Assembly (NCBI GenBank): GCA_014383445.1
Contig: JACNHV010000150.1
Coordinates: 1-39,728 of the forward strand
Direction: 5' to 3'
Source of the DNA: Candidatus Desulfobacula maris
GTDB taxonomy: Bacteria > Desulfobacterota > Desulfobacteria > Desulfobacterales > Desulfobacteraceae
DNA: 39,728 bases
Below are positions 27,551 through 38,488 of this stretch, piece by piece. The position numbers and the translations under genes were made by a program. The notes under the pieces are model-generated. The model was not told where the DNA came from, searched no databases, and saw nothing but the letters and a program-made list of their open reading frames with translations. Position 1 is the stretch's first letter; each line of letters starts with the position of its first letter.

Positions 27551-28153
27551 ATGGAGTCGAAGATTACAATTGAGTGTGGAAATATTAAACTTGAGGGCAG
27601 CTTAAGGAAAAACAGGTCTCAAAAGGCAGTGATTATCTGTCATCCCCATCCGCTTTATGGCGGGAATATGGATAATACTGTGGTGATGACCATTGCAGAC
27701 GCTTTTTTTGAAAAAGGATTTACAACCTTGAGGTTCAACTTCAGGGGAACCTGTAACAGCACGGGCATGTTTGACAATGGAATAGGGGAGCAGGAGGATA
27801 TCAGGGCTGCCATGTCCTGGCTAATGGAAAAGGATTATCAAAAAATTTATCTTGCCGGGTATTCGTTTGGTGCAAGAATGAATGCTTTGGTGGTTTCAAA
27901 GGGGTGTGAAATTGAAGATCATGTTATGGTGTCGCCACCTGTAGGATTTATGAGTTTTGATGAAATTAAAAAAATGCCCTCCGCAGGCCTGATTGTCACC
28001 GGTGCTAATGATGAAATCGCTCCAAAAGATCAGATTCAAGAGCATATCAATCGGTGGCAGATTGATCCGCAATATGAAATTATCAAAGATTGTGACCATT
28101 TTTATTCCGGCTGTCTTGGAAAACTTAAGACCATACTGACAGATTACTTGTGA
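27551..28153 (+). CDS. Alpha/beta hydrolase (COG2945-like)
   Basis: A 200-residue compact alpha/beta hydrolase. ICHPHPLYGGNMDNTVV (residues 29-45) is the oxyanion-region signature of this family. The nucleophile elbow is GYSFGA with Ser105. Asp154 in GANDEIAP and His183 in CDHFY complete a plausible triad. Family members are often annotated as dienelactone-hydrolase-like esterases without a known substrate. It starts 34 bp after pyrG, and its stop codon lies inside the first unit of the 18-bp tandem repeat. Confidence 0.85.
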   Translation: MESKITIECGNIKLEGSLRKNRSQKAVIICHPHPLYGGNMDNTVVMTIADAFFEKGFTTLRFNFRGTCNSTGMFDNGIGEQEDIRAAMSWLMEKDYQKIYLAGYSFGARMNALVVSKGCEIEDHVMVSPPVGFMSFDEIKKMPSAGLIVTGANDEIAPKDQIQEHINRWQIDPQYEIIKDCDHFYSGCLGKLKTILTDYL

Positions 28154-28190
28154 CCTTTAGGTTACGTGTGACCTTTAGGTTATCTGTCAT
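28149..28190 (+). repeat. 18-bp-period tandem repeat, copy B (two identical units plus partial)
   Basis: TGTGACCTTTAGGTTA occurs at 28149-28164 and again at 28167-28182, followed by a partial unit TGTCAT (28185-28190). The spacing is 18 bp. The same unit with one change is at 25007-25022. Both occurrences are in the same orientation and start at, or just after, the stop of a + strand gene. Confidence 0.75.
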
Positions 28191-28235: not shown

Positions 28236-28427
28236 ATGGGATCAACACAACAAAATTTTGATTATATTGTCATCGGTTCCGGGTTTGGCGGAAGTGTATC
28301 TGCCTTAAGGCTTTCACAAAAAGGGTATCGTGTGGGTGTCCTTGAAAAAGGAAAAGAATGGAAGAAAGAGGATTTCCCAAAAACCAACTGGAATATCAAA
28401 AGGGGTGGATGCTTCAAATTAAATTAA
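28236..28427 (+). pseudogene. N-terminal stump of a GMC-type FAD-dependent oxidoreductase
   Basis: A 63-residue ORF with its own ribosome-binding site (GAGGGG) and an intact FAD-binding beta-alpha-beta motif: [20 protein letters not shown], then GVLEKGKEW and [10 protein letters not shown]. These match the first 55 or so residues of cholesterol/choline-oxidase-like GMC oxidoreductases, which are normally over 500 residues. After about 28405 the sequence loses resemblance to the family (GGCFKLN, stop). None of the three forward frames downstream to 28684 continues it. The gene appears cut off by a deletion or by insertion of the downstream cluster. A functional mini-protein is unlikely. Confidence 0.8.
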
Positions 28428-28535
28428 AATAAGGCAAATCTAAAGAAAAGGCTTATAAAATAAGCTAAAATCATGAAATATGGTTTCGATAGTTATAAAA
28501 ATTTTAAAAGTTTCCTTATAAAATAAAATTAATGC

Positions 28536-28684: not shown

Positions 28685-30307
28685 ATGCCAATCAAAGGAA
28701 ACACTCTTATTCTTGACGGTTATACATTAACAATTGAAGAATTGATGAAAGCCGGTAAAGATTTGTCCATGAAAGTTGAAGTTGATGAAAACAATTGGCC
28801 CAAGATTAGGGATTGCAGAAAACTGGTTGACAAATGGGCCAATGAAGAACGTTGTATCTATGGTGTAAATACAAGTTGCGGCGGTCTTGTGGATCATCTT
28901 CTGCCCAAAGAAAGAGATAATGATTTTCAGAAAAACCTTGTCAGGAGTATCACCACCCAGGTGGGCAGGCCCTTTGAAGATGAGCTTGTCAGAATTTTCA
29001 TGATCGCCAGGGCCAACTCTCTTTGCCGCGGTTATTCCGGTATTAAAGAGGTCAATTTAAAAATCTATCTGGAAATGATTAATAAAAACGTTTTTCCCCT
29101 TGTTCCAAGAAAAGGTTCTCTAGGTACCAGTGGCGATCTAGGACCTTTAGGCTGTATAGCAAGCGTTGCCTTTGGTGAATGGAAGGCAAACTATAAAGGC
29201 AAACTTCTGCCGGGTAAAGAGGCAATGAAAGCTGCTGGTATAGAACTTATGTACTTGAGTGCAAAAGAAGGCTTATCTCTTATCAATGGTACTTCCGGAA
29301 TGGTGGGACTTGCCTGTACAGTTATTACAGAGGCCACCAATACATTGAAAAACTCTGATATTATTGCCGCCTTTGCCATTGAAACCCTTATGGGAAGAAC
29401 CAATCCCTTTGATGTGAGAGTTCATGAACAAAAATATCATCCAGGTCAATATGCCACTGCCATGAATCTGACCAAACTTTTAACGGGAAGTAATATGGCC
29501 ATTGATGAACAGGAACTCTCATTGAGACTTCAGACAGTGCTTAAAAAACATGAAGGTATTACCGTGGCAGATATTCCTGTTGAAGATGCCTACTCCATTC
29601 GTTGCACCCCCCAGTTTGTGGGTCCCACAAAAGAGGCTGTGCAGCACGCCCGGGAAGTTCTTTTAAGAGAGCTCAATTCCAGTAATGACAATCCTTTGAT
29701 TTTTACGGAATGGGACACATTTATTCATAATGGACATTTCCATGGTCAGCCCATCTCATTTGTAATGGACTGCCTGGCGATCTCCATGGTCAACATCGGG
29801 GTTGTCAGTGACAGGCGAATTGACAGGTTCATGGATGCCAATAACAGCACAGGTCTGCCACCCTTTCTGTGCAAAGAAGACACTGGGGTTCGCATGGGTC
29901 TTATGGGCGGTCAGTTCATGACAACATCACTTGTTGCAGAGAACAGAACCCTTGCCGTTCCAGCTTCCATCCAGTCCATCACATCCACGGCAGACTTTCA
30001 GGATATAGTCAGCTTTGGTCTGATTGCTGGAAGAAAAGCCAGAAAGATTGTTGAAAATACCAATCATATTCTGTCTTTTGAATTGCTTTGCGCTGCCCAG
30101 GCAGCAGATTTAAGGGGTGTTGACTTATTAAGCCCTGCTGGTAAAATCATGCACAAAGCGGTTCGTGAAACCCTTGAGTACATGGATTATGACAAGGTTT
30201 ATATTGACGATCTTGAAGAACTCAAAGCCAGAATCGAATCAGGTGAATTTGTTGAAAGGGTTGAAAAAGAGGTTGGCGAGCTTCTCATTGTTCACGAAAG
30301 AGAATAA
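28685..30307 (+). CDS. MIO-dependent aromatic amino acid 2,3-aminomutase / ammonia-lyase (AdmH-like)
   Basis: A 540-residue member of the HAL/PAL/aminomutase family. The MIO cofactor triad is Thr148-Ser149-Gly150 in GSLGTSGDLGPLG, rather than the usual Ala-Ser-Gly; Thr-Ser-Gly is, to my knowledge, the triad of the Pantoea phenylalanine aminomutase AdmH, also about 540 residues. Other catalytic residues fit: Tyr60 (YGVNT), Asn201 (LINGTSGMVGL), Tyr303 and Arg306 (EDAYSIRCTPQ). The substrate-selecting pair is Ser88-Ile89; the His of histidine ammonia-lyase (SH) is absent, as is the His of tyrosine-specific enzymes, so a non-polar aromatic ring (phenylalanine) is the best guess. Lyase versus mutase activity cannot be settled by sequence alone; the neighbouring beta-aminotransferase favours a mutase. 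Strong ribosome-binding site AAGGAGGGG. Confidence 0.85.
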   Translation: MPIKGNTLILDGYTLTIEELMKAGKDLSMKVEVDENNWPKIRDCRKLVDKWANEERCIYGVNTSCGGLVDHLLPKERDNDFQKNLVRSITTQVGRPFEDELVRIFMIARANSLCRGYSGIKEVNLKIYLEMINKNVFPLVPRKGSLGTSGDLGPLGCIASVAFGEWKANYKGKLLPGKEAMKAAGIELMYLSAKEGLSLINGTSGMVGLACTVITEATNTLKNSDIIAAFAIETLMGRTNPFDVRVHEQKYHPGQYATAMNLTKLLTGSNMAIDEQELSLRLQTVLKKHEGITVADIPVEDAYSIRCTPQFVGPTKEAVQHAREVLLRELNSSNDNPLIFTEWDTFIHNGHFHGQPISFVMDCLAISMVNIGVVSDRRIDRFMDANNSTGLPPFLCKEDTGVRMGLMGGQFMTTSLVAENRTLAVPASIQSITSTADFQDIVSFGLIAGRKARKIVENTNHILSFELLCAAQAADLRGVDLLSPAGKIMHKAVRETLEYMDYDKVYIDDLEELKARIESGEFVERVEKEVGELLIVHERE

Positions 30308-30317
30308 GGACAAAACC

Positions 30318-31691
30318 ATGATTGAAAGAAAAACTGGGACGGGAAAACAAATTAGTATTGAAGAACAAATTGAAAAGAAAATTGCAGATGCCTATAAGGA
30401 AAAGTTTCCAGTTTCCAAAGAGCATCATGAACGACTGATCAATTATATTCCCGGTGGTGCAACCAGAAGCCTGAGTTATTTTAAACCCTATCCCATTCAT
30501 ATTGATTATGGACAGGGTGCATACGTCTATACCCATGAAGGTCATAAACTTTTTGATGTAACCAATGCCTATGGTGCCATTGTCCATGGCCATGGGGACC
30601 TGGATGTTGTCAAGGCTGTTTCTCAAGGCATTGCAAGAGGCTCCCAGTACTCTACCCCCACAAAGGGGCAGTATAAACTGGCAAAGCTCTTATGTGAAAG
30701 GATACCCGGGTTTGACAGGGTCAGGTTTGTAAATTCAGGGACAGAAGCCACATTGTTTGCTTTAAGGACTGCAAGGGCTTACACGGGGAAAGACAAGATC
30801 CTGAAAATGACTGGCGGGTTTCATGGAACCCATGATTGCGTGGCAGCATCCACAAAAAAGAATGTGATTACTGCAGGGATTCCCAAAGGTATGACCCAGG
30901 ACATGCTGGAAGTGCCATTTAATGATTTTAATGCCCTTGAACGAGCAGTAAAGGAAAATGCTGACCATTTGGCTGCTGTCATAATGGAGCCCTTTCTTGG
31001 GGCTGGCGGTGTTGTGCTGCCAAAGCCTAAGTATCTTGAGCATGTACGGAAAGTGACATCTGATAATAATGTTCTGCTGATTTTTGATGAGATTTTTTCT
31101 TACAGGGTCCATACAGGAGGGTGCCAGACGCTTTATGGTGTTATTCCTGATCTGACAACGGTTGGAAAGGTTGTGGGAGGCGGGCTTCCAATTGGTGTGT
31201 TTGGCGGCAAGAAAGAAATCATGAATATTTTTTGCCATGAAAACACGGACAGGCCATTATACCATTCCGGAACATTTAACGGGTATGAAACAGTTATGCA
31301 GGCAGGATATGCAGCCTTGTCCAAATATGATGAAAAAGCTGTAACCTATATTAATAAACTGGGGGATCATTTCCAGAAAGGCATTTTGGAAAGTTTTAAA
31401 TCCAATGGATTAAATATCCAGTCCAACCAGATTGGATCGTTGCTGAATCTGCATTTTGTCAATGAACCAATAACAACGGCAGAGCAGGTCTTAAAATCAG
31501 AAGAACAGCTTCACACGCTGATGCACCTGTCCTTACTGAACAAAGGATTTTTTACAATTCCAAGGGGGTTATTTATCCTGTCTACCATAATGACAGAACA
31601 GGAAATTGATCATCTGGTCAATAAAATAGATGAAACATTAAAAGAATTGTTGCCATTGATTAAAGAAAAATATAACCATTTATTATTGTAA
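30318..31691 (+). CDS. Class III aminotransferase, beta-phenylalanine aminotransferase-like
   Basis: A PLP enzyme of 457 residues in the glutamate-1-semialdehyde aminomutase branch. FVNSGTEATLFALRTARAYTG holds the phosphate loop (Ser140-Gly141-Thr142), Asp257 is in LIFDEIF, and the PLP lysine is Lys284 in TTVGKVVGGG. HSGTFNG supplies the second-subunit Thr319. From memory it follows the Variovorax beta-phenylalanine aminotransferase closely, including the N-terminal ATRSLSYFKPYPIHI, whose Arg50 aligns with the substrate-carboxylate Arg41 of that enzyme, and the C-terminal IPRGLFILSTIMT. Predicted reaction: 3-amino-3-arylpropanoate + 2-oxoacid -> 3-oxo-3-arylpropanoate. I chose ATG 30318 (AAGGA 7 bp upstream); the frame extends back to 30165 only as overlap with the aminomutase gene, which ends 10 bp before. 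Confidence 0.85.
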   Translation: MIERKTGTGKQISIEEQIEKKIADAYKEKFPVSKEHHERLINYIPGGATRSLSYFKPYPIHIDYGQGAYVYTHEGHKLFDVTNAYGAIVHGHGDLDVVKAVSQGIARGSQYSTPTKGQYKLAKLLCERIPGFDRVRFVNSGTEATLFALRTARAYTGKDKILKMTGGFHGTHDCVAASTKKNVITAGIPKGMTQDMLEVPFNDFNALERAVKENADHLAAVIMEPFLGAGGVVLPKPKYLEHVRKVTSDNNVLLIFDEIFSYRVHTGGCQTLYGVIPDLTTVGKVVGGGLPIGVFGGKKEIMNIFCHENTDRPLYHSGTFNGYETVMQAGYAALSKYDEKAVTYINKLGDHFQKGILESFKSNGLNIQSNQIGSLLNLHFVNEPITTAEQVLKSEEQLHTLMHLSLLNKGFFTIPRGLFILSTIMTEQEIDHLVNKIDETLKELLPLIKEKYNHLLL

Positions 31692-31729
31692 TGGGTTTAA
31701 CTTAACAAAATTCCAGTAAAAGGAAATAA

Positions 31730-32212
31730 ATGGTTCTGGATAAAATTGATAAACAGATTTTAAATACACTTCAAGAAAATGGAAAAACAACAAATTCCAG
31801 GTTGTCTAAGATTGTCGGGATCTCAGCTCCTGCAACCCTTGAAAGGGTAAAACGACTGGAGCTTGCAGGGGTGATTTCTCATTTTACAGCTGTAATTGAT
31901 CCTGAAAAAATCGGATTTACAATTATGGCCATGGTCAATATCAGCTTAAGCCTGAGTAGTCTTTCATCTGTGGCTGCCATAAAGGAAAAATTTGCTGAGC
32001 TGGATGAAGTCATTCAATGCTACCAGATTGCCGGTGCAAATGACTTTATCTTAAAGGTGATTGCAAAAGATATTAAAGCTTATGGACAGTTTATGAACAT
32101 GAAGCTTACCCAGATAGAAGGTATTCAGGTCATTAAATCTTCTTTTGTGATTGATAATGTCAAGGATAAGAAAATGTTTGTCCTTGATTTGGATGAGGAA
32201 TATGTGGTGTAA
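31730..32212 (+). CDS. Lrp/AsnC-family transcriptional regulator
   Basis: A 160-residue regulator with an N-terminal winged helix-turn-helix (LDKIDKQILNTLQENGKTTN, then LSKIVGISAPATLERVKRLE) and a C-terminal RAM/ACT-like ligand domain (AMVNISLSLSSLSSV, YQIAGANDFILKVIAKDI). Lrp family proteins usually sense an amino acid and act as octamers. Lying in the middle of the cluster on the same strand, 38 bp after the aminotransferase gene, it probably senses the amino acid substrate or product and controls the promoter near 28536. ATG 31730 is preceded by AAAAGGAAA. Activator or repressor role is unknown. Confidence 0.92.
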   Translation: MVLDKIDKQILNTLQENGKTTNSRLSKIVGISAPATLERVKRLELAGVISHFTAVIDPEKIGFTIMAMVNISLSLSSLSSVAAIKEKFAELDEVIQCYQIAGANDFILKVIAKDIKAYGQFMNMKLTQIEGIQVIKSSFVIDNVKDKKMFVLDLDEEYVV

Positions 32213-32249
32213 GAGATAATAAAATTTTTGTAACAGGAGAAATAAAAAA

Positions 32250-33185
32250 ATGGATAATAAAATAATCATCACAGCAGCCATTACCGGATCTGTTCATATA
32301 CCAACCATGAGTGATTACCTCCCCATAACTCCTGACCAGATTGTGGAGGATGCGGTAAAAGCCCATGAGGCAGGCGCTGCCATTGCCCATATCCATGTCA
32401 GAAATCCTGAAAACGGATTACCCGTATCAGATCCGGATCTTTTCATGGAAGTATGTTCAAAGATCAAAGCCAGATGTAATATGATATTGCTTCCCACCAC
32501 AGGCGGCGGCATGAATCAGACCACGGAAGAAAAATTGATTCCCATCAAGCAGTTAAGGCCTGAAATGTGTTCTTTTGATCCTGCACCCTTTAATTTTGGT
32601 ATTTTCCAGATTGCAGGCCGGTTTAAAGAATTTAAACATGAATGGGAAAAAGATTATCTTGAACTGTGTAAGAATGTCACCTTCAGACCAACCTTTAACG
32701 ATGATATGATCTATGGAAAGACTTTTCTTGAAATTGATACCAAACCAGAACTTGAAATTTATGAGCTGGGCCATGTTTCCTATGTCAAATGGCTGTTTGA
32801 AGAGAATCTTTTAAAATCACCGGCACATCTTCAATTTGTATTCGGTCCCATGGTGGGATGGATGACTCCTTCTGTCAAACACCTGGTGCTGATTTATGAT
32901 GAGGCAAAGGAAGTTCTTGGGGAAGAAAATTTTACCTGGTCAGTTGCCGCCGGCGGAAGATTCCAGATTCCCATCACCACAACGGCTATGGCAATGGGTG
33001 CACAGAATGTAAGAGTCGGACTTGAGGATTCAATTTATGCCGGCAAAGGCATTATGGCAAAAGCAAGTGCGGATCAGGTGGGTATGATAAAAAGGATTGC
33101 AAAGGAAATGAGCCTTGTGCCTGCAACATCAGATGAGGCAAGACAGATTCTTGGATTAAAAGGATTGGATAAAGTGAATTTTTGA
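32250..33185 (+). CDS. Beta-keto acid cleavage enzyme (BKACE, DUF849)
   Basis: A 311-residue zinc-dependent TIM-barrel enzyme. The family exchanges a beta-keto acid with acetyl-CoA to give acetoacetate and a new acyl-CoA; the prototype is Kce of lysine fermentation. Visible signature: IITAAITGSVHIPTMSDYLP at the N-terminus, zinc ligands His47 and His49 in AHIHVRNP, LPTTGGGMN, and Arg255, Glu259, Asp260 in VRVGLEDSIY. The position matching Kce Glu14, which I recall as contacting the substrate amino group, is Ser14 here, in line with an uncharged side chain. It is about 35 residues longer than Kce, with an insert near residues 110-165. With the preceding genes the predicted substrate is 3-oxo-3-phenylpropanoate, giving benzoyl-CoA. 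ATG follows CAGGAGAAA. Confidence 0.92.
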   Translation: MDNKIIITAAITGSVHIPTMSDYLPITPDQIVEDAVKAHEAGAAIAHIHVRNPENGLPVSDPDLFMEVCSKIKARCNMILLPTTGGGMNQTTEEKLIPIKQLRPEMCSFDPAPFNFGIFQIAGRFKEFKHEWEKDYLELCKNVTFRPTFNDDMIYGKTFLEIDTKPELEIYELGHVSYVKWLFEENLLKSPAHLQFVFGPMVGWMTPSVKHLVLIYDEAKEVLGEENFTWSVAAGGRFQIPITTTAMAMGAQNVRVGLEDSIYAGKGIMAKASADQVGMIKRIAKEMSLVPATSDEARQILGLKGLDKVNF

Positions 33186-33262
33186 GTAATGAGTTGTGAG
33201 ATGTGAGTAGTGAGAATATTACCCATATGTTTTTTCATTACCCACCACTCAACGTTCACTAC
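33183..33262. repeat. Inverted arrays of a TGAGTRR heptamer between BKACE and ligase genes
   Basis: Five heptamers of consensus TGAGTAG run along the + strand from the BKACE stop (TGA at 33183, 33190, 33197, 33204, 33211). On the minus strand, degenerate heptamers begin at 33258, 33251, 33244 and 33237. The two arrays face each other and can pair imperfectly (18 of 27 positions identical when the right arm is reverse-complemented), making a long weak hairpin with a loop near CCCATATGTTTTTT. It lies inside the presumed operon. Confidence 0.6.
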
Positions 33263-33299
33263 TTTTATATAATTAATTAAAAATTAAGGAGGGCCATCG

Positions 33300-34880
33300 T
33301 TGAATTATTCAGGTTATGCTTCAATTCATGCTCGGCACATTCCTGACAAGGTTTGCCTCATCGAACGAACCCCGGCAAAGGGTGAAAGACGAACCTTTAC
33401 CTGGCAGGAATTTAATGACGAGATTAATCGAACAGCGAATTTTTTGGCAAAAGAGCTGGGGGTTACACATGGAGATTTTGTCATGCACCTTCAGAAAGAT
33501 TCTTTGGAATGGCTTGTCACCTATTTTGCCATCATCCGTCTGGGGGCTGTGGTTGTACCCTTAAACTTCCGTTTTGAAAGTTCTGATATCCTGTATGCAG
33601 CCGAAGTTTGTAACCCGGATGTATTTATTATCGGGTCTGAATTTTTAGGGGTTGTCCAGCCTGCTCAAAAAGATCTTGCCACCATTAAAAGTTATATATG
33701 TGTCGGCAACGATGTTCCTGATGATATGATAGATTTTAAAAGAATCCAGGAATACCAGGATATTTCAAATGCACTGATGGAAGTTGACAGGGATCACGAC
33801 CTTGCCATGATGTTCACTTCAGGTACTACAGGCAAACCCAAACCTGTACTTCACACTCATTTTTCAATTAATAATACTGCCATTGGTAATGGAATGAGCT
33901 ATTTCGTTCAAAAGGATGATAATTATTTATTCTTTTTACCTTTATATCACAGTGGGACCATGTTTTTATGGGCACCCTTTTATGCCACTGGTGCGCAAGG
34001 AACCATTATAAGAGATTTCAGAGATCCCAAATGGATAATTGAAGCCATTGCCGAGGAAAAATGCACGGATGTACTGTTTGTGGTGCCCATTGGAATTGCT
34101 GTGCTAAATGCCATTGAAAAAGGGAATATTATTCTTTCTGATTATGACCTGTCTTCATGGAAATATATGGAGATAGGTGCTCAGCCAGTGCCATTTGACA
34201 TTATGAAGCTTCTTGTGGAAAAGCTGCCCTGTGCAGTATCAAATATCTATGGCATCACTGAGGGCGGCGGCGGCGGATTGTTCAACCTGTATCCGGAAGA
34301 TGTCCTTTCAAGACCCGGTTCCATTGGCAAACCAACCTTTGGTGTTGAAGCTAAAATTGTTGGTCCCACAGGCGATGAACTTTCCAATGATGAGGTTGGG
34401 GAGCTGATATTCAGGACACCGAGAATGATGCGGGAATACTATTCAAATCCTGAAAAAACCCAGGAAGCATTAAAAAATGGTTGGCTTTCCACCGGAGATT
34501 TACTAAAGAAAGATAAAGATGGATATTTTTATATTGTCGATCGAATGAAAGATATGGTCACCAGTGGCGGTGAAAATATCTTTCCCGTTGAAATTGAAGA
34601 TGCTTTGATGGATCATCCTGATATAGATGATATCGCATGTATCGGATATCCTGATGACAGACTTGTGGAGATCGTTCTTGCAGTGGTTCAAGTCAAAGAG
34701 GGAAGACAATTGAGCGAAGAAGATGTGATTGAATTTGCAAAATCAAAATTATCCCTTTATAAGGTACCGCGCAGGGTTATTTTTGATCAGGTCCCTAGAA
34801 ATCCCACAGGAAAGCTCATGAAACCTCAACTTCGGGAAAAATTTACCGGCAGAAAGGAGGCGTTTAAAAAACTGGATTAA
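33300..34880 (+). CDS. AMP-forming acyl-CoA ligase (class I adenylate-forming)
   Basis: A 526-residue ANL-superfamily ligase: acid + ATP + CoA -> acyl-CoA + AMP + PPi. The P-loop is TSGTTGKPKPV (residues 173-183); the usual GKPKG ends in Pro here. YGITEGGGGG at 317-326 has five glycines. STGD at 397-400, DRMKDMVTSGGENIFPVEIE at 414-433 and the catalytic Lys505 in NPTGKLMK complete the active site. Substrate is not readable. Candidates in context are acetoacetate released by BKACE, benzoate, or an imported aryl acid. TTG 33300 is the start, with AAGGAGGG 6-7 bp upstream. The gene is separated from BKACE by the heptamer arrays. Confidence 0.88.
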   Translation: MNYSGYASIHARHIPDKVCLIERTPAKGERRTFTWQEFNDEINRTANFLAKELGVTHGDFVMHLQKDSLEWLVTYFAIIRLGAVVVPLNFRFESSDILYAAEVCNPDVFIIGSEFLGVVQPAQKDLATIKSYICVGNDVPDDMIDFKRIQEYQDISNALMEVDRDHDLAMMFTSGTTGKPKPVLHTHFSINNTAIGNGMSYFVQKDDNYLFFLPLYHSGTMFLWAPFYATGAQGTIIRDFRDPKWIIEAIAEEKCTDVLFVVPIGIAVLNAIEKGNIILSDYDLSSWKYMEIGAQPVPFDIMKLLVEKLPCAVSNIYGITEGGGGGLFNLYPEDVLSRPGSIGKPTFGVEAKIVGPTGDELSNDEVGELIFRTPRMMREYYSNPEKTQEALKNGWLSTGDLLKKDKDGYFYIVDRMKDMVTSGGENIFPVEIEDALMDHPDIDDIACIGYPDDRLVEIVLAVVQVKEGRQLSEEDVIEFAKSKLSLYKVPRRVIFDQVPRNPTGKLMKPQLREKFTGRKEAFKKLD

Positions 34881-34935
34881 ATAAAATTTCCCATTGAGGT
34901 TGACTTTTCGTTGAATTATAACGTAGGTTATGGGT

Positions 34936-35020
34936 CCACTGAGTGGTACTTGGGCAATTGAGCACGACGATATTGTTTAGTAAGTTTTAACAGAGATTGC
35001 TTAAAAAGAATCTCATTTTT
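34936..35020 (+). promoter_or_regulatory. Possible operator and weak hairpin in the ligase-dctP spacer
   Basis: The 169-bp spacer before dctP contains the odd-centred palindrome CCACTGAGTGG (34936-34946), which could be a regulator site, and a hairpin GAGATT-N10-AATCTC (34993-35014) followed by ATTTTT. The hairpin could be a weak attenuator or partial terminator that sets transporter versus enzyme expression. No convincing promoter was found here. Confidence 0.3.
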
Positions 35021-35049
35021 ACATAATCATAAATTTAGGAGGGTGTTCC

Positions 35050-36081
35050 ATGAAAAAATGTAAAGTAGCTTTAACCATTAGCAGTATTTTTTTCTTAATG
35101 ACAATCCTATCATCCAGTGTAATGGCAAAACAGTTAAACTTCTCTTCCTGGCTGCCGCCGGGGCATCCCATTGTTGCAGATATGATGCTCCCCTGGATGG
35201 AAAATGTTAAAAAAGCAACAGGCGGAAGGGTTGATATCACGCTTCTGGCAAAAGGACTGGGCCATCCAAAATCTTACTTTGATATTGTAAAAAACGGTAT
35301 GGCTGATGCCGGCTATACATGTAACGCTTATTCACCAGGTCGGTTTACATTGTCAGAAGGTGTGGAACTCCCCTTTCTAGGGAACAGCGCAGAGGCAAAT
35401 AGTGTAGCCTATTGGAGAACCTATAAAAAATATTTTGAAAAAGGCGATGAATATAAAGGCGTACAACTTCTTGGCGTTATGACCCATGGTCCGGGGCAGA
35501 TTCATAATTCGAAAAAAGTAGCTCAGTCTATTGCTGACCTTAAAGGCATGAAGTTCAGGGTGCCCGGCGGGATTGCAGCACAAGTTGCCGCAAGTCTGGG
35601 CATTGTTGGAATTCAAAAGCCGGCCAGCCAGGCTTATGAACTTCTATCCCGTGGTGTTGCAGATGGCGTTGTTCTTCCGCTGGAATCAATCAAATCTTTT
35701 AAAATTACCAAAGTGGTTCCATACACCACATTGGTACCGGACGGGCTTTATAATGTTTCTTTTTATCTGGTTATGAACCAAGATACTTTTAATAGTTTCT
35801 CTCCAGCAGATCAAAAAGCAGTTATGGCAGTATCTGGTGAAGCATTTGCAAAACTTGCAGGTAGAGCATGGGATGCAGCAGATCGAGTCGGTCTGGCAGA
35901 CATGAAAGCAAATGGCAATTCTGTTGAAACTGCCTCAAAAGCATTTATCGCAGAAATTAAGGAAGCAACAAAACATTTAGAGGAAGACTGGGTAAAAAAA
36001 GCAAATGAGAAAGGTGTTGACGGCGCTGCAGCATTAAAATTTTTCCGTGGCCAAGTAGCAAATTATGACGTTATTAACTAA
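35050..36081 (+). CDS. dctP: TRAP transporter substrate-binding protein (DctP family)
   Basis: A 343-residue periplasmic solute receptor for a tripartite ATP-independent transporter. The signal peptide ends in SSVMA-KQL (cleavage after residue 26). The mature part begins with the family-like LNFSSWLPPGHPIVADM. Arg170 in GMKFRVPGG is the conserved arginine that clamps the ligand carboxylate in DctP proteins. Thus the ligand is probably an organic or amino acid with a carboxylate, in keeping with the cluster's aromatic amino acid or aryl acid theme. A strong ribosome-binding site (AGGAGGG) precedes ATG 35050. It overlaps dctQ by 17 bp. Confidence 0.93.
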   Translation: MKKCKVALTISSIFFLMTILSSSVMAKQLNFSSWLPPGHPIVADMMLPWMENVKKATGGRVDITLLAKGLGHPKSYFDIVKNGMADAGYTCNAYSPGRFTLSEGVELPFLGNSAEANSVAYWRTYKKYFEKGDEYKGVQLLGVMTHGPGQIHNSKKVAQSIADLKGMKFRVPGGIAAQVAASLGIVGIQKPASQAYELLSRGVADGVVLPLESIKSFKITKVVPYTTLVPDGLYNVSFYLVMNQDTFNSFSPADQKAVMAVSGEAFAKLAGRAWDAADRVGLADMKANGNSVETASKAFIAEIKEATKHLEEDWVKKANEKGVDGAAALKFFRGQVANYDVIN

Positions 36082-36577
36082 AAGTAACACTCAAGCCGGT
36101 GCGTGGAATTTATGCTTAAATTTTCTGCATCGGCTTTTCGAACCTTTGGTATCAATTGCATTGTTTTTCATGATGGCATTAACTTTTTTTGATGTCATCG
36201 GGCGGTATATTTTTAACTCGCCCATTATCGGTGCACTTGAATTAACTGAGTTTTCAATGGCCATTGTAATTTTTTTGGGCCTGGTTCTTCTGACTTCTCA
36301 AGAAGGCCATGTGACAGTTGATTTGATTGATAACTTTGTGCCTGATAAAATTAAACCCATTCAAAACATTATCATTAATCTGATTAATTTAGCTGTCCTG
36401 ATTGTTATCAGCTGGCAGTTGTGGATAAAAGCAGGAGATGCTGCCGAGTATGGGGATAGGACTGAGTATTTGTATATGCCGCTGTCACCATTGATTTTTT
36501 TCATGTCAATTATGACAGGTGTAGCCGGTCTGATTTTGTTATTTATTATGATCAATTCGTTAAAAATGGAAAAATAG
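36065..36577 (+). CDS. dctQ: TRAP transporter small membrane subunit (DctQ family)
   Basis: A 170-residue protein with four membrane segments: LVSIALFFMMALTFFDVIGR (a DctQ hallmark), FSMAIVIFLGLVLLT, IIINLINLAVLIVISW and FFMSIMTGVAGLILLFIMI. It pairs with the large DctM subunit. EGHVTVDLID after TM2 is typical of the family. ATG 36065 lies inside the end of dctP and the stop is 4 bp before dctM, so the three are translationally linked. Confidence 0.92.
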   Translation: MTLLTKSNTQAGAWNLCLNFLHRLFEPLVSIALFFMMALTFFDVIGRYIFNSPIIGALELTEFSMAIVIFLGLVLLTSQEGHVTVDLIDNFVPDKIKPIQNIIINLINLAVLIVISWQLWIKAGDAAEYGDRTEYLYMPLSPLIFFMSIMTGVAGLILLFIMINSLKMEK

Positions 36578-36581
36578 GTTT

Positions 36582-37874
36582 ATGGAAGCATCTTTAATTG
36601 GATTTGCATTTCTTCTCATTTTGATTCTTGCAAAAGTCCCCATTCCTATGGCTATGGCAGTGGTTGGGTTTGTAGGATTTGGAGAGGCTATCAACTACCA
36701 CGCAGCCCTTAGTATGGTCTCTACGGTCGCCTCTGAAGAAGGAATGAATTATAGCTTGTCCGTAGTACCACTTTTTATTTTAATGGGTAATTTTGTGACG
36801 CAGTCCGGACTTTCGCATGAGCTTTATAAGTCTTCCTATGCCTTTTTCGGGCATAGGAAGGGCGGACTAGCCATGGCAACAATCGTAGCTTGCGGCGGGT
36901 TCAGCGCAGTATGTGGCAGTTCTTTAGCGACCGCAGCGACCATGAGTAAGGTCGCCATGCCATCCATGCGTAAATTTGGCTATGCCGACAGCCTGGCAAC
37001 GGGTTCTATTGCTGCAGGAGGAACACTTGGTATCCTTATTCCTCCGAGTGTTATCCTAGTCCTTTACGGGATAATGACTGAAAGTGATATTGGACAACTA
37101 TTTGCTGCCGGTATTTTGCCGGGTCTTCTCGGAATTATCTGCTACTTAGGCGCTGTTGCTGTTGCAACAAGCATTAATCCGAAAATTGGTCCCAGAGGTG
37201 AGCTGGTCGCGTGGCCTGACAGATTCAGAAGCCTTAAAGGGGTGTGGGGCGTGTTGTTGTTGTTCTTTATTGTCATGGGCGGCATTTACGCCGGGATTTT
37301 TACACCCACCGAAGCTGCGGGTATTGGGGCAACTGGTGCTTTCTTGTTTACCCTGTTTCGTAAAAAACTTACCCTGGAAATATTAAAGAAGGTTTTAGTT
37401 GATTCAGCAAGTACAACAGCCATGATCTTTTTTTTGTTGATGGGTTCATTTATTTTTGCCAACTTTGTCAATGTGGTTGGAATGCCCGATGCTTTAGCAG
37501 AATTTGTATTGGGTTGGGATGTTTCACCTTTTGTTGTTGTGCTCATTCTTATGCTCGTCTATATTGTCTTGGGCTGCATTTTGGAAAGTATGTCAATGAT
37601 TGTTTTAACAGTTCCTGTTTTTTATCCCATGATGCAGGCACTTGGCTTTGATCTCATCTGGTTCGGTATTGTAGTGGTGGTTGTTACTGAAATAAGTTTG
37701 ATTACTCCACCTGTTGGATTAAACGTGTTTGTGCTGAAGGCTGTATTGCCTGATGTAAAAGTCGGCACCATCTTTAAAGGGGTAACACCTTTCTGGATAG
37801 CTGATATTATTCGTTTAACACTTATTGTATTTTTTCCAGCGATTTCACTATTTCTGGTCAGGCTGATGGGTTGA
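36582..37874 (+). CDS. dctM: TRAP transporter large permease subunit (DctM family)
   Basis: A 430-residue, roughly 12-segment sodium-coupled permease. It carries the DctM hallmarks PLFILMGNFVTQSGLSHELY, the helical-hairpin segment CGGFSAVCGSSLATAATMSK (Ser/Thr-rich, transport site), GSIAAGGTLGILIPPSVILV, and the second repeat YAGIFTPTEAAGIGA and ITPPVGLNVFVLK. The length is normal. It closes the operon and is followed by a strong terminator. Confidence 0.95.
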   Translation: MEASLIGFAFLLILILAKVPIPMAMAVVGFVGFGEAINYHAALSMVSTVASEEGMNYSLSVVPLFILMGNFVTQSGLSHELYKSSYAFFGHRKGGLAMATIVACGGFSAVCGSSLATAATMSKVAMPSMRKFGYADSLATGSIAAGGTLGILIPPSVILVLYGIMTESDIGQLFAAGILPGLLGIICYLGAVAVATSINPKIGPRGELVAWPDRFRSLKGVWGVLLLFFIVMGGIYAGIFTPTEAAGIGATGAFLFTLFRKKLTLEILKKVLVDSASTTAMIFFLLMGSFIFANFVNVVGMPDALAEFVLGWDVSPFVVVLILMLVYIVLGCILESMSMIVLTVPVFYPMMQALGFDLIWFGIVVVVVTEISLITPPVGLNVFVLKAVLPDVKVGTIFKGVTPFWIADIIRLTLIVFFPAISLFLVRLMG

Positions 37875-37987: not shown

Positions 37988-38488
37988 TTATATATAATAA
38001 TTTTTATCAAATTTATCCCAGAATTCTTTATCGTCATCTTTCCAGTTGTTACCAAAACGCTTGTTAAAACTGGTTCCCAGTTTTTCAAAGGAAAATTTCC
38101 AGGTGGATCTGCCTTGTTTGTGTTTATTCAAAAGTTCATTGATTAATGAATCAAGTACACTTAAATGCTCTTTTGAAAGATAGGAAATAGCTCCTTTTTT
38201 AATGGATTCGATCAAGGATTCCGGATTCATTGCGTTTGCCGTCAACATGATGGCGGGGATGCCTTTTTGTACACATTCTTCTAAAAGTTTAATCCCGTTG
38301 ACCCCCATAATGTCAAGGATAGCAAGATCATAGTGGGTCTGGAGAATTTTTTTGGAAGCTGTCTCATAGTCCTGAGCAACGTCTATCTTTGCTTCATCCA
38401 GAATTTCCTGAATGGTTTCAAGAACATCCCATTCATCATCAACAGCAAGTATGTGTCTGCCTTTGAGAAAAGAATCGATTTTTGTCAT
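37988..38488 (-). CDS. Stand-alone response regulator receiver protein
   Basis: A 166-residue CheY-like protein. The acidic pair is Asp17-Asp18 in LAVDDEWDV, the phosphoacceptor is Asp59 in LAILDIMG, Thr83 is in MLTANA and Lys106 is in YLSKEH. After the receiver (to about residue 125) comes a short basic/aromatic tail (RSTWKFSFEKLG, then WDKFDKNYYI) without a recognisable output domain, so it probably works by protein-protein contact in a phosphorelay. No histidine kinase gene is in the window. The start follows AAGGAG on the minus strand. Confidence 0.9.
   Translation of the reverse strand: MTKIDSFLKGRHILAVDDEWDVLETIQEILDEAKIDVAQDYETASKKILQTHYDLAILDIMGVNGIKLLEECVQKGIPAIMLTANAMNPESLIESIKKGAISYLSKEHLSVLDSLINELLNKHKQGRSTWKFSFEKLGTSFNKRFGNNWKDDDKEFWDKFDKNYYI

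Follow-up and report, generated by a model that had tools for sequence, protein, structure and literature searches.

The 39,728-nucleotide stretch of Candidatus Desulfobacula maris DNA analysed here (contig JACNHV010000150.1; hereafter the window) raises the question of what an enzyme related to AdmH, an aminomutase of antibiotic biosynthesis, may be doing among catabolic genes. This enzyme, which belongs to the 4-methylideneimidazol-5-one (MIO) class, is encoded at the start of a block of eight named genes at 28685-37874 on the plus strand, which were typed by Pfam and NCBIfam profile scores and whose products have folds that homology assigns with certainty. We propose, with a probability of about 0.7 and arguing from sequence, that the block specifies a peripheral catabolic route by which L-phenylalanine is converted to benzoyl-CoA via beta-phenylalanine and benzoylacetate. 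A preliminary description of this DNA had suggested the same sequence of mutase, aminotransferase (AT) and beta-keto acid cleavage enzyme (BKACE), and the interpretation is now supported by the conservation of these three genes, their co-occurrence with the benzoyl-CoA (bam) genes and their physical linkage to them.

In the proposed route: (i) the MIO enzyme would shift the amino group of L-phenylalanine to give beta-phenylalanine, (ii) the AT would take this amino group off, leaving 3-oxo-3-phenylpropanoate (benzoylacetate), and (iii) the BKACE would convert benzoylacetate and acetyl-CoA to benzoyl-CoA and acetoacetate. Benzoyl-CoA would then enter class II (bam) ring reduction, and acetoacetate would presumably be re-activated and split to acetyl-CoA. 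An Lrp-type regulator probably senses the amino acid, while an acyl-CoA ligase and a tripartite ATP-independent periplasmic (TRAP) transporter encoded downstream would be a module of their own, taking up and activating aryl acids for the same pool. Taken singly, the three reactions are established chemistry for the respective enzyme families; it is their combination, and the aromatic substrate of the BKACE, that we infer.

Within one family of the Desulfobacterales, about 40 species keep the MIO, AT and BKACE genes together, with MIO enzymes that are 83-98% identical, and the search for this triad in related genomes that the preliminary description had proposed found it widely conserved. Among 42 loci in further species (Desulfobacula, Desulfotignum, Desulfospira and relatives), nearly all those with a long enough contig show the order MIO-AT-Lrp-BKACE-ligase, a repetition that is not due to chance. 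The Lrp gene lies beside the block in most loci and does not adjoin it in L039, L043 and L047; one locus has no ligase in its block. The constant core is MIO, AT and BKACE. In the window, the gaps from MIO through to the last transporter gene are, in order, 10, 38, 37, 114, 169, -17 and 4 bases, and with all genes on the same strand and such short gaps the block reads as one operon; every gene of the list given in the preliminary description (MIO, AT, Lrp, BKACE, ligase, TRAP) is present in the shared orientation claimed for it.

If the block produces benzoyl-CoA, a pathway consuming it is expected in the same genome, and the preliminary description had held that its absence, together with unchanged expression on phenylalanine, would speak against the proposal. 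We found bamB at the edge of contig C369 (86% identity to the BamB of L106), had on C38, above its NCBIfam cut-off, and the N-terminus of bamA at the end of C38. Of the 86 family genomes compared, 35 have both MIO and bamA, 6 have bamA only, 8 have MIO only and 37 have neither (p=3e-10, in a test that ignores phylogeny). Within genus g4, bamA is present in 2 of 19 genomes and MIO in precisely those two (p=0.006). The discordant genomes, together with a few controls but not all of the genomes with neither gene, were rechecked with Had, BamB and BKACE; after this, the 54 genomes that are at least 90% complete divide, by hand count, into 31 with the block and bam markers and 23 with neither, with no conflicts.

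The same association is seen in gene neighbourhoods. In Desulfobacteraceae bacterium 4572_130 (G001; its contig is L047) a single strand carries had, a hydrolase, a short-chain dehydrogenase/reductase, bamA, TRAP, MIO, an EamA transporter, AT and BKACE. The block of G019 lies next to a TRAP whose orthologue neighbours the bam genes of G055, and a regulator and BamB (1289 bits against the benzoyl-CoA reductase structure 4z3w) follow this TRAP; the block of G017 adjoins heterodisulfide-reductase-like, bam-type electron-transfer genes. G017 and G019 belong to one genus and may represent one event, while G001 is separate. These three placements beside bam genes are difficult to account for if the block makes neither benzoyl-CoA nor a compound that feeds it, and they add physical linkage to the strong co-occurrence that the earlier suggestion of searching for bam genes alongside the triad has brought to light. 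As a separate observation, G055 encodes three further BamB paralogues (55-64%) on its contig C1, at 4892567-4898978 and 5164053-5166014.

The MIO enzyme (28685-30307; PF00221, 520 bits) is a predicted phenylalanine 2,3-aminomutase. Its top curated family is TIGR04475, the AdmH phenylalanine aminomutase, with 659.5 bits where the cut-off is 800 (the G001 orthologue scores 663 bits), and its closest solved structure is AdmH itself (3unv, 44% identity). The comparison tree, rooted at the midpoint and with some long branches, contained AdmH, relatives encoded on plasmids, a tyrosine aminomutase (TAM) and histidine ammonia-lyases (HutH), among them this genome's own. In this tree, the window enzyme falls in a clade of 12 rows, with support of 100/100, which is sister to AdmH and its relatives from nonribosomal peptide synthetase (NRPS) clusters and apart from HutH and TAM, while the second MIO gene of this genome falls inside the separate HutH clade. 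The clade is thus a sister of AdmH and not a member of its family by the NCBIfam cut-off, so that the designation "AdmH-like" given earlier holds for the tree, the pocket and the best structure but stops short of family membership.

The residues that we take to line the AdmH active site were mapped through the alignment to the window enzyme, which keeps Y59, G66, L85, I/V89, L197, Y303, R306, F411, F438 and Q439, together with the MIO-forming triad TSG at 148-150. The sole changes relative to AdmH are V108 to I/V (position 89) and L421 to M (M404), and across 34 orthologues the pocket positions are invariant or nearly so (I/V). At position 89, where SgTAM has His, every orthologue has Ile or Val, which argues against tyrosine and histidine as substrates; phenylalanine as the substrate, and a mutase rather than a lyase outcome, are what the pocket and the tree would suggest. 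Two other identities were tried and rejected: HutH (460 bits against the TIGR01225 cut-off of 539, with HutH proteins clustering separately in the tree) and tyrosine 2,3-aminomutase (443 bits against the TIGR03832 cut-off of 501, and no His at the ring-binding position of SgTAM). Beyond the family, samples of 395 genomes from the phylum and 389 from the order yielded no member of the clade; the phylum sample gave HutH-type matches only, at 36-40% identity. The four annotated neighbourhoods of plasmid-borne relatives that were examined are NRPS/polyketide synthase or other biosynthetic clusters.

The AT, a class III enzyme dependent on pyridoxal phosphate (PLP), lies at 30318-31691 (PF00202, 187 bits), the ATG at 30318 being the best placement of its start, and is a predicted beta-phenylalanine transaminase forming benzoylacetate. 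Its closest solved structure is the beta-transaminase 6k8h; next, at little distance, come the aryl-beta-amino-acid transaminases 6iz9, 2yku and 4ao9, interspersed with glutamate-1-semialdehyde aminomutases (GSAMs). The motif described by Crismaru for aryl-beta-transaminases comprises Arg41, Val43, Glu75 and Tyr76 in VpAT numbering (PMC9850050). When aligned through StoTA, the window AT has the carboxylate-binding Arg (R52, on the translation from 30312) and the ring-binding Tyr (Y87), both invariant, and Leu in place of Val43.

The BKACE (32250-33185) scores 286 bits against PF05853, whose gathering score is 24.8, and is predicted to turn benzoylacetate and acetyl-CoA into benzoyl-CoA and acetoacetate. 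The residues that we take to be its zinc ligands (H47, H49 and E259), and R255 and D260, which we likewise presume to be functional, are invariant in 35 orthologues. The position held by Glu14 in the BKACE of the lysine pathway is Val or Ile in the window enzyme and its orthologues. This genome encodes a second, unrelated BKACE (30% identical) on C171 (L118, 2246-3154); its neighbours are a ketopantoate-reductase-like gene and genes for peptide ABC permeases. Between AT and BKACE, the Lrp/AsnC-family regulator (31730-32212; PF01037, PF13412) likely exerts amino-acid-responsive control of the operon.

Downstream of the BKACE lie the AMP-forming acyl-CoA ligase (33300-34880; PF00501), whose TTG start is supported by an identical start position in orthologues, and the TRAP genes for DctP (35050-36081; PF03480), DctQ (36065-36577; PF04290) and DctM (36582-37874; PF06808), predicted to serve uptake of an aromatic substrate. 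A TRAP adjoins the block wherever the contig extends far enough; three non-orthologous sets alternate beside the core operon (L108, L110, L014 and many others), one of them being the TRAP that neighbours bam genes, and in most relatives the window type is replaced by another. Just beyond the block, on the minus strand, a CheY-like response regulator (37988-38488; PF00072) is encoded, and nearly all loci have it in this position. At locus L034 a ligase gene (85% identical, match from 1756) is located upstream of MIO beside an alpha/beta hydrolase, on a contig that ends within BKACE; this placement is a local rearrangement or duplication.

Two further genomes connect this part of the block to phenylalanine, G055, apparently Desulfobacula toluolica Tol2, and G246, apparently Desulfococcus multivorans. 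In G055 the TRAP adjoining the block differs in type from that of the window, and its Q, P and M subunits are 75, 80 and 90% identical to those of a G246 TRAP at 2.78 Mbp. A comparison of D. multivorans with D. toluolica gives 74-90% identity for a system published as importing phenylalanine and phenylacetate (PMC5109826), and since the values match, the D. toluolica block, at about 2.119-2.129 Mb, very probably adjoins that transporter. The phenylacetate/phenylpyruvate cluster of G246 carries an orthologue of the ligase (72-73% identical) beside a TRAP, and a homologue of the CheY-like regulator (56-60% identical) alongside two sensor kinases, while no matches to MIO, AT or BKACE were found in this cluster. 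This recurrence of ligase, TRAP and regulator without the triad points to an aryl-acid module, to which MIO-AT-Lrp-BKACE would be an addition. The ligase is probably an aryl-acid (phenylacetate-type) CoA ligase, dispensable for the triad, and no orthologue of it is present in G001. The preliminary description was right to place ligase and TRAP in the co-oriented block, but both probably stand outside the three-step route. Acetoacetate-CoA ligase was considered as another identity for the ligase and set aside, as no family model supports it and the orthologue sits in the G246 phenylacetate cluster.

The ligase also bears on the rival explanation that survives best, though we consider it unlikely. 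Here, the MIO enzyme would be a phenylalanine ammonia-lyase, the ligase would form cinnamoyl-CoA and beta-oxidation would yield benzoyl-CoA; AT and BKACE would have some other function. Such a path from lyase through ligase and beta-oxidation to benzoyl-CoA operates in enterocin biosynthesis, MIO mutases and lyases have fold and mechanism in common, and the structural relatives of the operon's ligase include feruloyl-CoA synthetase and 4-coumarate-CoA ligases. However, AT and BKACE accompany MIO in nearly all loci, G001 has all three beside bamA yet lacks the ligase orthologue, and the MIO clade groups with aminomutases.

Slightly less likely still is the scavenging of external beta-phenylalanine or related aryl-beta-amino acids, with a mutase whose only role is to interconvert the alpha and beta forms, making either usable. 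AT and BKACE by themselves could take beta-phenylalanine to benzoyl-CoA, and the constant proximity of a TRAP would suit such uptake, but growth on beta-phenylalanine needs no dedicated mutase and the free compound is rare in nature relative to phenylalanine. We regard as improbable that the same chemistry acts on another substrate, for instance tyrosine (giving 4-hydroxybenzoyl-CoA) or a substituted phenylalanine: specificity for phenylalanine is read from residues only, but the residue replacing the SgTAM His and the rest of the pocket, as in the Phe-specific AdmH, speak for it. Finally, a block with no joint role in benzoyl-CoA formation, in which phenylalanine is degraded via phenylpyruvate and phenylacetate only and MIO, AT and BKACE act in the synthesis or breakdown of an unrelated beta-amino compound, would agree with the published proteomics as summarised in PMC5109826, but it leaves the bam co-occurrence and direct linkage unexplained and is highly improbable.

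Several observations weigh against the route from phenylalanine through beta-phenylalanine to benzoyl-CoA. The MIO enzyme falls below the TIGR04475 cut-off, the AT has Ala in place of the motif Glu75 and GSAMs as its top NCBIfam models, and the BKACE is under every function-specific cut-off, its best NCBIfam model being the 3,5-dioxohexanoate family NF053538 (337 bits against 430). No BKACE acting on benzoylacetate was found reported in the literature searched, and the phenylalanine of D. toluolica has been assigned to the phenylpyruvate/phenylacetate route, as PMC5109826 summarises it. In addition, the acetoacetate CoA-transferase subunit TIGR02429 was found in only 2 of the 20 genomes tested, which leaves the re-activation of acetoacetate without explanation. 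AtoAD, which PMC5109826 reports as increased on phenylalanine and phenylacetate in D. toluolica, was examined as the acetoacetate-activating partner and rejected, TIGR02429 having no match in G055 at E<=1e-40.

On balance, we still favour the catabolic route, and it seems probable, if somewhat less so than the route itself, that it constitutes a previously undescribed anaerobic phenylalanine pathway with a catabolic aminomutase and a BKACE for an aromatic substrate, widespread in benzoyl-CoA-degrading Desulfobacteraceae. No prior description was found in the open literature, a search to which the 2013 D. toluolica genome and proteome paper did not belong, so that its novelty is provisional. 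If true, it would be a new entry to the central anaerobic aromatic pathway, reaching benzoyl-CoA with no ATP-dependent activation of an aromatic acid, which would matter to sulfate reducers that live close to the thermodynamic limit. It would also mean that the antibiotic-type AdmH family has a role in catabolism and that a BKACE acts on an aromatic substrate. The published D. multivorans scheme leaves its last step to benzoyl-CoA unclear (PMC5109826), and where the schemes of this species and D. toluolica are unclear or tentative about this step, the route offers a testable explanation.

Upstream of the block, the window holds at 28237-28428 (plus strand) the N-terminal remnant of a GMC/cholesterol-oxidase-like FAD gene with an early stop, closely preceded at 28150-28190 by GTGACCTTTAGGTTA in tandem copy. 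An apparently intact homologue of 528 amino acids occupies the same neighbourhood in L119 (11659-13245).

Compared with known systems, the window MIO enzyme has the fold, the TSG-derived MIO group and a nearly identical substrate pocket of AdmH (PaPAM) of andrimid biosynthesis, its sister in the tree; it differs in being only 44% identical and in lying among catabolic genes, whereas the annotated plasmid relatives examined lie in biosynthetic clusters. The AT has in common with VpAT (4ao9), MesAT (2yku) and StoTA (6k8h) the class III PLP architecture, the carboxylate-binding Arg and the ring-binding Tyr, and departs from them at the Ala that replaces Glu75. In aerobes with aryl-beta-transaminases the beta-keto product is generally lost as acetophenone, whereas here the BKACE would capture it. 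This BKACE belongs to the same family as the lysine-pathway enzyme and the triacetate acetoacetate-lyase of phloroglucinol degradation (PMC10470551), with the same presumed metal-binding residues and presumed exchange with acetyl-CoA to acetoacetate, but its proposed substrate is aromatic and it has Val or Ile, not Trp, at the Glu14 position. At the level of the pathway, the start and end points are those of the phenylpyruvate/phenylacetate/phenylglyoxylate route of Thauera and Aromatoleum, but the proposed route would involve no keto acid decarboxylation, no phenylacetyl-CoA oxidation and no ATP-dependent ligase step ahead of benzoyl-CoA. Benzoylacetate is a benzoyl-CoA precursor in acetophenone and ethylbenzene degradation as well, where it is formed by carboxylation and consumed via a CoA ligase and a thiolase. 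In contrast to that pathway, whose carboxylase is described in PMC5214803, the route proposed here would derive benzoylacetate from phenylalanine and use a BKACE to convert it.

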